The position numbers were made by a program, and so were the translations under genes. Source: Microbacterium sp. STN6 (GTDB lineage: Bacteria > Actinomycetota > Actinomycetes > Actinomycetales > Microbacteriaceae). From it: 64,000 nt of DNA. The notes beneath the pieces were generated by a model. That model was not told the origin of the DNA and ran no database searches. It saw only the letters and a program-made list of their open reading frames with translations. This document shows positions 13,777 through 61,360 of this stretch, one piece after another. The DNA lies in NCBI RefSeq assembly GCF_026410545.1, contig NZ_JAPMIT010000001.1, forward strand, positions 1,116,001 through 1,180,000, given 5' to 3'. The stretch's first letter is position 1, and each line of letters opens with the position of its first letter.

Positions 13777-13815
13777 CACGAAAGGCCCCCCCCCTGACGG
13801 GCGGGGCCTTTCGTG
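13777..13815 (-). terminator. Strong hairpin after pyk
   Basis: A perfect 13-bp inverted repeat, CACGAAAGGCCCC (13777-13789) and GGGGCCTTTCGTG (13803-13815), with a 13-base C-rich loop, begins 10 bases past the pyk stop codon. It is the most convincing terminator in the window. The A/T segment within the stem gives a short T-run in the RNA. It also insulates pyk from the glgX operon, whose start lies about 60 bp further on. Confidence 0.85.
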
Positions 13816-13825
13816 GCGTGGCGTG

Positions 13826-15274
13826 CTACCGGATCGCGGCGTACGCCGGCGCTGCCGCATTGTGGGCGTCGCCGACGACGTGAACACGCACGTCGTTGGT
13901 GGAGCCCGAGATTCCGGGAGGCGAACCCGAGATCACGACGACCTTGTCGCCGATCTCCGCCATGCCCTCGCCGAGCAGCAGGTCGTCGACCTGGGCGAAC
14001 ATCTGGTCGGTGTGGGTGACCATGTCGACCAGGTGGCTCTGGATGCCCCACGACAGGGCGAGGCGGCGGCGGATTCCCGGCTCCGGCGTGAACGCGAGCA
14101 TGGGGATCTTCGAGCGCAGGCGGGACATGCGGCGCGCCGAGTCTCCGGTCTGCGTGAACACGCACAGGTACTTCGCCTCGACGAAGTCCGCGACCTCGGC
14201 GGCGGCGAGCGTGAGAGCGCCGCCCTGCGTGCGCGGCTTCGTGCCGAGCGGCGCGACGCGCTCGAGGCCGTGCTCCTCGGTCGATTCCACGATGCGAGCC
14301 ATCGTCTGCACCGTGACCACCGGATACTCGCCCACGCTCGTCTCGCCCGAGAGCATGACCGCGTCTGCGCCGTCGAGCACGGCATTGGCGACGTCGGAGG
14401 TCTCCGCCCTGGTAGGAACGGGGCTGCTGATCATCGACTCGAGCATCTGCGTCGCCACGATGACCGGCTTCGCACGTCGGCGCGCGATCTCGACCGCACG
14501 CTTCTGCACGATCGGCACGGCCTCCAGGGGCAGCTCGACGCCGAGGTCGCCGCGCGCCACCATGATGGCGTCGAACGCGTCGATGATCTCCTCGAGTGCG
14601 TCGACGGCCTGAGGCTTCTCGATCTTCGCGATCACGGGGACCCGGCGGCCCTCCTCTGACATGATCTCGTGCACGCGCTCGATGTCGGCGGCGTTGCGCA
14701 CGAACGAGAGTGCGATCAGGTCAGCGCCCAGCTTGAGACCCCAGCGCAGGTCGGCCTCGTCCTTCTCCGAGAGCGCGGGAACGTTGACGGCGACGCCGGG
14801 CAGGTTGATGCCCTTGTTGTTCGACACCGCACCCGCCACGACGACCTCGGTCCTGACGACGGTGTCGTCCGCGTCGATGACGCGCACCTTCACCTTGCCG
14901 TCGTCGATGAGCAGGAAGTCGCCCGGCTTGACGTCGTGCGGCAGCCCCTTGAACGTGGTCGACGAGAGCTCACGGGTGCCGACGATGTCGTCGGTCGTGA
15001 TCGTGAAGATGTCGCCGACCTCGAGCTCGTACGGGCCGCCCTCGAACTTGCCGAGGCGAATCTTCGGGCCCTGCAGGTCGACCATGACGGCGATGGCGCG
15101 GCCCGAGTCGTCGGCGGCCTTGCGCACATTGGCGTAAACGCCCTCGTGCACGTCGTAGGTGCCGTGGCTCAGGTTCATCCTCGCTACGTCAACGCCCGCG
15201 TCGATGATGGCGCGAATGTTCTCGTAGCTGGATGTCGCCGGGCCGAGGGTTGCGACGATCTTTGCCCGTCTCAT
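13826..15274 (-). CDS. pyk: Pyruvate kinase
   Basis: A 482-residue pyruvate kinase, converting phosphoenolpyruvate and ADP to pyruvate and ATP in the last step of glycolysis. Visible landmarks are KIVATLGPA at the N-terminus, ARMNLSHG with the Arg that binds the phosphate, the signature IAKIEKPQAV with the catalytic Lys, ARGDLGVELPL and KPVIVATQMLESM. The C-terminal third is the regulatory domain. ATG at 15274 has a GGAG ten bases upstream. It follows gltD by 97 bp on the same strand and ends at the strong terminator at 13777-13815. Confidence 0.98.
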   Translation of the reverse strand: MRRAKIVATLGPATSSYENIRAIIDAGVDVARMNLSHGTYDVHEGVYANVRKAADDSGRAIAVMVDLQGPKIRLGKFEGGPYELEVGDIFTITTDDIVGTRELSSTTFKGLPHDVKPGDFLLIDDGKVKVRVIDADDTVVRTEVVVAGAVSNNKGINLPGVAVNVPALSEKDEADLRWGLKLGADLIALSFVRNAADIERVHEIMSEEGRRVPVIAKIEKPQAVDALEEIIDAFDAIMVARGDLGVELPLEAVPIVQKRAVEIARRRAKPVIVATQMLESMISSPVPTRAETSDVANAVLDGADAVMLSGETSVGEYPVVTVQTMARIVESTEEHGLERVAPLGTKPRTQGGALTLAAAEVADFVEAKYLCVFTQTGDSARRMSRLRSKIPMLAFTPEPGIRRRLALSWGIQSHLVDMVTHTDQMFAQVDDLLLGEGMAEIGDKVVVISGSPPGISGSTNDVRVHVVGDAHNAAAPAYAAIR

Positions 15275-58052: not shown

Positions 58053-58080
58053 GAGCGGGCCACCCGAGGGTGACCCGCTC
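58053..58080 (-). terminator. Terminator of rpsD
   Basis: GAGCGGG and CACC (58053-58064) pair with GGTG and CCCGCTC (58069-58080) around a CGAG tetraloop, with a single mismatch (C60/A73), making an 11-bp stem on the minus strand, followed by TTCGCCGTTT. An outer repeat TAAACGGC (58042-58049) / GCCGTTTA (58098-58105) encloses it and overlaps the rpsD stop. Confidence 0.8.
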
Positions 58081-58915: not shown

Positions 58916-60319
58916 CTACTCGCCTCTCACGATGCGCCGTAGCTTGGCCAGGCGTGCCGAGACGTCCCGCTCGTTCCCATGCTCCGTTGGCGAGTAGTAC
59001 GTTGTGCCGTCGAGCTCGTCCGGCAGGTAATCCTGCCGCAGCACGCCGAGTGCGTCGTCGTGCGGATACCGGTACCCCTTGCCGTGACCGAGCCGCTTCG
59101 CGCCGGGGTAGTGCGCGTCACGCAGGTGCTTCGGGACCCGCCCGATCTTGCCGGCGCGCACGTCGGCAAGCGCCGCATCCAGCGCCATGTACGCAGCATT
59201 CGACTTCGGTGCCGTCGCCAGATGCACGACGGCCTGGGCCAGAGGGATGCGCCCTTCTGGCATGCCGATGAGTTGCACGGCGTCGGCAGCCGCGACGGCG
59301 ATCGTGAGAGCCTGGGGGTCGGCCATCCCGATGTCCTCTGACGCGAGCACGATGATGCGGCGTGCGATGAAGCGCGGGTCCTCCCCCGCCTCGATCATGC
59401 GCGCAAGGTAGTGCAGCGCCGCATCGACATCCGACCCGCGCACCGACTTGATGAAGGCGCTGATGACGTCGTAGTGCTCGTCACCGTTGCGGTCGTAGCG
59501 CAGCAGGGCGCGATCGACCGCGAGAGCGACGAGTTCGGCCGTGATGGCCGGATGCACGGGGCGTGCCTCATCCTCATCCTCTACCTCGTCCCCGTTCCCG
59601 TTCCCGTCCTCTTGTGCGGGCTTGTCGTCCGACGCGGCAGCCGACGAGGCGGAGACGGCCGCCGCCTCGAGAGCGGTGAGCGCGCGCCTCGCATCGCCCG
59701 ACGCGAGGCGGATGAGCACGGCGCGGGCGTCATCCGCAAGTTCGAAACGACCGTCGAGGCCGCGCTCGTCGATGAGTGCCCGGTCGATGAGAATGCCGAG
59801 GTCGTCGTCGCTGAGGGGCTCAAGCGTGAGCAGCAGGGAACGCGACAGGAGCGGCGCGATGACCGAGAATGACGGGTTCTCGGTGGTCGCGGCGACCAGG
59901 ATGACCCAGCCGTTCTCGACGCCCGGCAGCAGCGCGTCCTGCTGCGCCTTGGTGAAGCGATGGATCTCGTCGAGAAAGAGGACCGTGGAGATGCCGTAGA
60001 GGTCGCGGCTCGACAGCGCCTCCTCCATGACCTGGCGCACGTCGCGTACGCCCGCAGAGACGGCGGAGAGCTCGACGAACCGGCGCCCGGATGAGTGCGC
60101 GATGGCCTGTGCGAGTGTGGTCTTGCCCGTGCCGGGCGGGCCCCAGAGAATGACGGAGACCGAGCCACGCTCCCCCGTCTTGTCTGCCGCCAGGCTGACG
60201 AGCGGCGAGCCCGGGGTCAGCAGGTGGCGCTGGCCAGCCACCTCGTCGAGGCTGCGCGGGCGCATGCGCACGGCCAGCGGGGTGGCGCCGGAATGAAGGC
60301 CCGGCTGTGCAGGGACCAT
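58916..60319 (-). CDS. rarA: Replication-associated recombination protein A (RarA/MgsA)
   Basis: A 467-residue AAA+ protein of the clamp-loader group acting at stalled forks. Walker A GPPGTGKT at 60-67, Walker B LFLDEIHR at 114-121, arginine-finger region near LLSRSLLL, then the C-terminal tetramerisation domain with [22 protein letters not shown]. An acidic/Asn-Gly insert at 222-255 breaks the fold between the AAA+ core and that domain. I use ATG 60319 because the family begins there; the same frame stays open for 777 codons further upstream but only as antisense of two real genes. Confidence 0.96.
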
Positions 60320-60358
60320 GCTGAAAGCGTACCGGCGCGGTGCGAGGCCGCACGCCGT

Positions 60359-60387
60359 TTTGCGCCCATAGGGTGTTTGCGTAGAGT
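60359..60387 (+). promoter_or_regulatory. Candidate promoter of the cyclophilin gene
   Basis: TTGCGC (60359-60364), a 17-base spacer and TAGAGT (60382-60387). If correct, transcription would begin within the left arm of the 60390-60425 hairpin. Confidence 0.35.
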
Positions 60388-60389
60388 CG

Positions 60390-60425
60390 AGAAGTCGAGC
60401 CCACCGCACAGCGGGCTCGACTTCT
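60390..60425. promoter_or_regulatory. Perfect 13-bp hairpin in the rarA/cyclophilin gap
   Basis: AGAAGTCGAGCCC (60390-60402) and GGGCTCGACTTCT (60413-60425) are perfect inverted copies with a 10-base loop. They lie 36 bases before the cyclophilin start and 70 bases from the divergent rarA start. No T-run follows. It could be an operator, a 5'-end stabiliser or an attenuator. Confidence 0.75.
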
Positions 60426-60460
60426 CTGCGCCGTAGCGACGCGCCCGATGGAGGACACAC

Positions 60461-61273
60461 GTGGCATCGAAGAATGCGAACGATCGAGAGGCTCGCGCGG
60501 CCAGGGAACGCCTGCGCGCGTACCAGGCGAGGCAGGCCGTTCACGAGCACACGGTGCGCCGCCGACGCCGAGACAACATCATCGCCGGCATCGGGATTGC
60601 GGTGATCGTGGTGCTCGCGGTCGCGACACAGCTTCTCTACTTCCAGGGCCCGGGGAAGGCCGCACCGCAGGCGGCCCCGAGCAGCACGCCGAGCCCGAGC
60701 GCCTCGTGCCCGCCCGCCGCTGATTCTGCGAACAAAGGGGACGTGCCCGCGGCATCCGTCTCCGAGTGCCGTACGTGGAGCGGAACGATGACGCTCAACG
60801 ACGTGAAGCTCGGCATCGCGCTCGACGGCGCGGCGGCGCCGCAGGCGGTCGCCTCCACCGTGTCGCTCGTGCAGAAGGGGTTCTACACGGGGCTCACCTG
60901 CCACCGGCTCACGAACGGCGGCTTCTACGTGCTGCAGTGCGGCGACCCGAACGGCAACGGCTCCGGCGGTCCGGGCTACAGCTACGGTCCGATCGAGAAC
61001 GCGCCGGCAGACAACGTGTACCCGGCCGGCACGATCGCCATGGCGCGCCAGGGCGGCGACGCGGCAAGCCAGGGCAGCCAGTTCTTCATCGTCTACAAGA
61101 AGACCACCATTCCCTCGGATGCGGCGGGCGGCTACACCGTCATCGGTCACGTCACGAGCGGGCTTGCCGACCTGACCTCGCAGATCACCGACAAGGGCGT
61201 CGTGCCGGGCACGTCGGCGAGTGACGGCGCACCGGTCGTACCGACGAAGATCACCTCGATAACACTTCAGTAG
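60461..61273 (+). CDS. Membrane-anchored cyclophilin peptidyl-prolyl isomerase
   Basis: A 270-residue protein with a basic cytoplasmic tail, one membrane helix (about 42-64), a Ser/Pro/Ala-rich linker and an extracytoplasmic cyclophilin domain. The cyclophilin core shows [37 protein letters not shown] and [11 protein letters not shown]. It speeds Pro isomerisation in exported proteins. The active-site Arg-Phe pair of classic cyclophilins is only partly kept (HRLTNG in place of HRVI), so catalysis may be altered. Start GTG 60461. Next gene is DUF349, same strand. Confidence 0.93.
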
Positions 61274-61360
61274 CCATGCGCGCGCGTCGGACGCGTGCAA
61301 TAGGCTGAAACGCGAACGTGCGGCTGCCAGGCGGGCCGCCGGTGGACAAGGTGAGTTCTT

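Follow-up and report, generated by a model that had tools for sequence, protein, structure and literature searches.

Pairing kept without sequence in a hairpin at the predicted start of a cyclophilin transcript of Microbacterium sp. STN6

Introduction

Hairpins at the 5′ end of an mRNA are known as stabilizers of the message in a few model genes. Published work describes stabilizing 5′-terminal stem-loops for ompA of Escherichia coli and for ermC and aprE of Bacillus subtilis (PMC7148126), and adds papA as well as a general E. coli case for 5′ stem-loops (PMC3997798). In these accounts the stem-loops of ompA, papA, aprE and ermC are structures at or next to the mRNA 5′ end that do not depend on a particular sequence. 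A direct test in a mycobacterium was negative. The esxB 5′ UTR of Mycobacterium smegmatis contains a double hairpin, and the published test reports that the hairpins gave a reporter no stabilization, that their removal left the reporter half-life unchanged, and that no transcriptome-wide correlation was present (PMC11728522).

In this study, we analyzed a 64-kb stretch of DNA of Microbacterium sp. STN6 (the window), in which a perfect hairpin lies ahead of a gene for a cyclophilin-type peptidyl-prolyl isomerase. The hairpin adds an example to a known class of elements, and its value lies in pairing that is conserved without conservation of sequence and in the hint that long leaders in this family generally open in such a way. 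Like the stem-loops of the model genes, it would be a sequence-unspecific structure at the 5′ end, here predicted, of its mRNA; it differs from the ompA type in that it was predicted from sequence only, belongs to an actinobacterial host, and was found through conservation of pairing across genera. We found no literature on a described cyclophilin leader hairpin or on start-site maps in this bacterial family.

Materials and Methods

A cyclophilin ortholog was found at an E value of 1e-40 in 254 of 299 genomes of the bacterial family, and upstream regions were taken from among the best-scoring of these 254 matches. This gave 217 loci (5 left out). A search for rarA with a permissive cut-off matched 209 of them, unique sequences numbered 189, and the promoter score exceeded 7 in 127. 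Requiring a score of at least 10 and at least 24 nt ahead of the ribosome-binding site left 108 leaders, which were reduced at <65% identity to 76 nonredundant leaders spanning 31 genera. The half-swap tests, in which the 5′ half of a leader is joined to the 3′ half from another species, required a 38-nt leader and used 74 of the 76. Length classes were formed from 73 leaders, one (L212) having been removed for an absurd length caused by a misassigned start codon. An alignment within one genus held 8 distinct sequences from 12 genomes after three duplicates and one genome with an unalignable leader (G105) were dropped. For the next gene, encoding a DUF349 protein, 90 regions were collected, 77 had a promoter site, and 42 were nonredundant (43 in the half-swap). 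A scan of genome contigs gave only two remote relatives.

Results

The dyad at positions 60389 to 60426 is a perfect 14-bp stem closed by a 10-nt loop and lacks a T-run (Table 1). The first-pass annotation had described a perfect 13-bp hairpin at this site; the perfect hairpin is real, and its stem is one base pair longer. It lies in a gap of 141 bp flanked by two divergent genes: rarA on the minus strand, whose ATG is at 60319, and on the plus strand the cyclophilin gene, whose GTG is at 60461. With loops of 3 to 14 nt allowed, no other perfect inverted repeat in the window is as long, and 20 Markov windows of equal size contained one stem of at least 14 bp in total, which makes the dyad unusual at the scale of the whole window and more so within a gap of this size. 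The 103 nt from 60359 to 60461 fold at −51.2 kcal/mol (z −5.06), a value that none of 200 shuffles equaled. A terminator scan of 60000 to 61000 returned no site, and the letters directly after the stem read TGCGCCG, in agreement with the earlier description of a strong stem without a T-run between divergent genes. An Rfam covariance-model search of 60000 to 60900 gave no match up to an E value of 5. A search of the bacterium's own genome found the dyad in one copy, besides its reverse complement, so that a repeat element is unsupported. The cyclophilin product is probably membrane-anchored, as judged by eye from an N-terminal membrane segment. The runner-up among the perfect inverted repeats of the window is a 13-bp repeat, CACGAAAGGCCCC/GGGGCCTTTCGTG, at 13777 to 13815; it stands just beyond the end of a minus-strand frame (13826 to 15274), of which it is perhaps the terminator.

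Table 1. Features of the region between rarA and the cyclophilin gene, in window coordinates
Feature	Position	Strand	Remarks
−35 element of the cyclophilin promoter, TTTGCG	60359-60364	+	Aligned to the TTGG of relatives; alternative TTGCGC, 60360-60365
−10 element TAGAGT (consensus TAAAGT)	60382-60387	+	Conserved among relatives
5′ arm of the 14-bp dyad, GAGAAGTCGAGCCC	60389-60402	+	Of which 60394-60402 in the predicted RNA
Predicted transcription start G60394, 7 nt past the −10 element	60394	+	Deduced from where the −10 element lies and from the GGG kept in relatives
Loop, 10 nt	60403-60412	+	Between the dyad arms
3′ arm of the dyad, GGGCTCGACTTCTC	60413-60426	+	60413-60421 pairs inside the predicted RNA
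Shine-Dalgarno-like GGAGGA	60450-60455	+	Called from sequence; outside the hairpin
Cyclophilin-type peptidyl-prolyl isomerase gene	60461-61273	+	PF00160, E 9.7e-22
−10-like TACGCT of rarA	60326-60331	−	12 nt before the ATG; conserved TANNNT
rarA/mgsA AAA ATPase gene (MgsA_C, AAA)	58916-60319	−	PF12002, E 2.8e-73

Across 66 nonredundant relatives, the cyclophilin promoter has a TAAAGT −10 element, often followed by TC, a TTGG −35 element at the usual distance, and a preference for GGG 7 to 9 nt past the −10 element. Sites were chosen by their −10 pattern, with ties resolved toward TAAAGTTC; the −10 element and part of the TC are therefore built into this result, while the −35 element and the GGG played no part in the choice of sites. 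At a score above 12 the family promoter matrix hit the window twice, at the −10 site of the cyclophilin gene and once inside an open frame. The promoter had been proposed as TTGCGC-17-TAGAGT, and the conserved −10 element, −35 element and G-rich start of the relatives back that reading; its spacer has to be corrected, since TTGCGC and TAGAGT are 16 nt apart and 17 nt is obtained with the −35 element read as TTTGCG. In the predicted leader fold, the first G of GGAGGA is part of a weak stem formed with the beginning of the coding region, and the other five bases are mostly unpaired.

On the other strand, a TANNNT motif occurs 3 to 24 nt ahead of the extrapolated rarA ATG in 126 of 141 nonredundant regions, mostly at 9 to 13 nt. 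Such closeness to the start codon suggests that the rarA mRNA probably lacks a leader, and with it the hairpin. Farther along this strand, the rpsD leader (about 58898 to 58730) carries the conserved blocks GTGCGGCTGCG (58867 to 58857), CCTGTAGCCGG (58829 to 58819) and ATCCCTCTAA (58803 to 58794), and CGGCTGC followed by TGTAGCCG or TTTAGCCG is found in 27 of 30 loci (L238 to L267), the window's own included. The block is a candidate leader RNA of ribosomal protein S4, and Rfam gave no match for it in the window. After rpsD, at 58079 to 58054 of the minus strand, a stem AGCGGGTCACC/GGTGGCCCGCT is followed by CTTCG; similar stems occur in several relatives, and this one is likely to be a terminator whose T-run is very short.

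Relatives, including the only other genome of the genus examined, do not share the letters of the dyad. A scan for perfect stems upstream of the cyclophilin gene in 29 relatives had also hinted at no conservation, and it was misleading because imperfect hairpins of other sequence occupy the same place. When 35-nt windows were moved along the 76 aligned promoters (36 to 76 sequences per window), folding exceeded that of shuffles only at 0 nt (mean z −0.83, n = 76) and 5 nt (−0.90, n = 73; standard error about 0.15) past the −10 element; all remaining windows from −70 to +40 had mean z values between −0.23 and +0.31. In the half-swap test, native leaders folded at −12.43 kcal/mol and swapped ones at −9.93 kcal/mol, a mean cost of 2.5 kcal/mol (z −8.8, 74 leaders), and over four split points z ranged from −7.4 to −8.8, with none of 5,000 permutations as good at each. 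Control stretches across the promoter (−30 to 5) and in the downstream leader (20 to 55) gave z values of −0.0 to +1.0, and an upstream stretch (−55 to −20) showed a small effect (z about −2). Redundancy cut-offs from 65 to 45% identity (z −7.2 with 30 leaders at 45%), GC matching of the swap partners, and removal of the window's sequence from the set all left the result standing. When each of 30 genera contributed a single leader, drawn at random six times, the effect was smaller, with z values of −2.9 to −5.3 and at most 13 of 3,000 permutations as good.

The swap gain was nearly flat, at −2.20 to −2.50 kcal/mol, as long as the stretch started no more than 6 nt ahead of the end of the −10 element and no more than 7 nt past it. 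It dropped to −1.79, −1.36 and −1.05 kcal/mol at starts 8, 9 and 10 nt past that end, a fall-off that fits a stem beginning at the transcript start. The gain was larger for the sense strand (−2.50 kcal/mol) than for the antisense strand (−1.94 kcal/mol), which carries most of the pairing signal too. By this measure the window's own stem is the strongest of the 74, folding 17.6 kcal/mol better than its swaps. Within one genus, 8 aligned sequences, one of them (L089) visibly misaligned in the count, had 2 pairs in which both partners had changed (5 cells), and 92.9% of the cells were paired. Among 500 shuffles, 5 attained the covariation score and 1 the percentage paired; two of the five covariation measures failed against shuffles, the both-side-changed pairs being equaled in 191 of 500 and the pair types in 490 of 500. 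The first-pass annotation had set compensatory changes, expected of an RNA, against strict identity, expected of a DNA site, and the two pairs changed on both sides, together with letters that are not conserved, favor RNA.

Several results pull against conserved pairing. When the first 9 nt were held fixed and the rest shuffled, the pairing of the first G residues was 0.67 compared with 0.63 in the control, and 3 of 100 shuffle sets were as high; pairing above 0.7 was seen in 35 of 76 species compared with 32.7 expected, and only positions 8 to 11 past the −10 element rose (z 2.0 to 4.1). Longer windows weakened the excess, to a mean z of −0.62 for 45 nt and of −0.33 (median −0.02) for 44 nt taken from the start, with controls at −0.06 and −0.23. 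Control promoters from the bacterium's own genome (34 matrix hits in 464 kb, 4 usable) had a mean z of −0.14 to −0.16, with a standard error of about 0.7, a set too small to weigh on either side. In DNA this rich in GC, single hairpins are often near chance, and it is the ensemble that carries the claim. The dyad's five outermost pairs (60389 to 60393 with 60422 to 60426) precede the predicted start, and an RNA stem neither needs nor explains them. In the sister species (L004) a stem with other letters may likewise reach into the discriminator, as judged by eye, by 2 bases in one fold, with another fold differing. These outer pairs possibly reflect a start farther upstream, a genus-specific role of the DNA, or a by-product of mutation.

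The hairpin depends on the length of the leader. A swap gain of more than 2 kcal/mol was obtained for 30 of 46 leaders of at least 55 nt (18 genera), for 7 of 16 leaders of 40 to 54 nt, and for 2 of 11 leaders shorter than 40 nt, in which the tested stretch takes in the ribosome-binding region. In the region 61302 to 61360 of the window, the DUF349 gene likewise has a conserved promoter, GTGCAA and TAGGCT, of its own, and its leaders in relatives also folded better than shuffles, with mean z values of −0.95, −1.13, −0.79 and −0.52 at windows 0, 5, 10 and 15 (n = 39 to 42). In the half-swap (n = 43), the four split points gave z values between −3.8 and −6.4. This signal is placed less sharply; the window at −40 was also low (−0.87, n = 19), perhaps because of the terminator of the cyclophilin gene. 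In the window itself the DUF349 leader is unremarkable, with 9.5 to 21% of its swaps folding better. Both leaders tested, those of cyclophilin and DUF349, thus show an excess at their own start, and since the DUF349 leader shows a like excess, the start hairpin is not tied to cyclophilin. As comparators, rpsD was set aside because it carries its own sequence-conserved leader, and the alaS and DUF948 upstream regions, inspected by eye, gave no usable promoter set.

Discussion

We favor, with moderate confidence, a reading in which the dyad is the DNA image of a 5′-terminal RNA stem-loop that guards or insulates the front of the cyclophilin mRNA. The earlier suggestion that the hairpin opens this transcript as an RNA element is supported by the fold excess at the start, the half-swap and the pairs changed on both sides, the start itself being a predicted one. 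With respect to ompA-type elements, the half-swap indicates that structure and not sequence is kept, despite the weak result obtained when the first nine bases were fixed; the stem leaves GGAGGA outside; and for a start at G60394 the stem would begin at, or within a few nucleotides of, the 5′ end.

From the promoter, the position of the hairpin, the conserved pairing and the dependence on leader length, all observed in silico, we infer a start site, folding in the cell, and a benefit by protection or insulation. RNA polymerase would start at about G60394, and the first 28 nt would fold at once into a 9-bp stem, GUCGAGCCC/GGGCUCGAC, of about −18.7 kcal/mol with no free 5′ tail, after which the leader would leave GGAGGA outside. 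Relatives tend to keep this hairpin design while the sequence turns over. Such a layout is that of stabilizing 5′ stem-loops like the one of ompA. The most likely benefits would be protection from 5′ decay, the 5′ end being buried from enzymes that require a single-stranded 5′ terminus, or insulation of the ribosome-binding site, the G-rich start being kept from pairing with it downstream. The esxB result in M. smegmatis lowers our confidence in protection and makes insulation of translation a serious rival.

In that rival, the hairpin organizes the leader for translation, through ribosome standby or by preventing the G-rich 5′ end from pairing with the ribosome-binding site, and leaves stability untouched. 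The location of GGAGGA outside the stem agrees with it, as do downstream leader folding that is not above control (mean z −0.04 to +0.25 for windows 15 to 40), the occurrence of the hairpin mainly in long leaders, and the absence of a stability effect in M. smegmatis (PMC11728522). Some leaders of the family have no hairpin, so the structure is not required, and we regard this explanation as unlikely, if less so than the others that follow. A nascent hairpin might instead act on initial transcription by preventing backtracking or R-loops and aiding promoter escape: a stem beginning at the predicted +1 would close with polymerase still near the promoter, and the DUF349 leader has a similar excess, but relatives with short leaders mostly lack the hairpin, and an explanation of this kind seems improbable to us. 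Chance or mutation, with GC-rich leaders folding anyway and the perfect stem arising from template switching, could account for the weak result with nine 5′ bases fixed, for the pairing of bases upstream of the start, and for a stem of at least 14 bp that also turned up once in 20 random windows. The sliding-window, half-swap, redundancy and one-per-genus tests all argue against such a by-product, and we give it little credence.

The first-pass annotation had also raised a dimeric regulator acting on rarA and the isomerase together, and a regulator bound to a dyad over the start site might control cyclophilin, perhaps with rarA. Like the operator dyads of dimeric repressors, this inverted repeat overlaps a promoter, the perfect 14-bp dyad covering the discriminator and start; the flanking genes diverge, and in each of the two genomes of the genus complementarity seems to reach a few bases beyond the predicted start on its upstream side. 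Unlike such operators, the dyad has no sequence conservation, even within the genus, and the family pairing signal is confined to the transcribed side, with no rise when the tested stretch is extended upstream past the predicted start. A single copy was found in the genome, pairs have changed on both sides, and rarA has its own promoter-like TANNNT near its ATG. A shared operator therefore finds no backing here, and we attach very little probability to any operator at the site. The RNA element is favored over it because the pairing signal sets in close to the predicted start, is stronger for the sense than for the antisense strand, and is not seen in leaders shorter than 40 nt. That the hairpin terminates or attenuates a short RNA, or one coming from upstream, is hardly credible. 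The perfect GC-rich stem resembles that of an intrinsic (Rho-independent) terminator, and the terminator-like stem of rpsD in this genome is also without a long T-run; here, however, there is no T-run, the site is at a predicted transcript start, both flanking genes point away, and the hairpin position follows the −10 element across relatives.

Beyond cyclophilin, we put forward, tentatively and as rather less probable than the 5′-terminal stem-loop itself, a rule for this actinobacterial family by which mRNAs with long leaders open with a +1 hairpin kept by structure, a general sequence-free cap or insulator of the 5′ end, unlike leaderless genes such as rarA. That pairing, and not sequence, is kept among 30 genera suggests that hairpins of this kind matter in some actinobacteria. 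The family also offers a natural series in which their role may be tested, with the hairpin present in long leaders and little or none of it in short ones.
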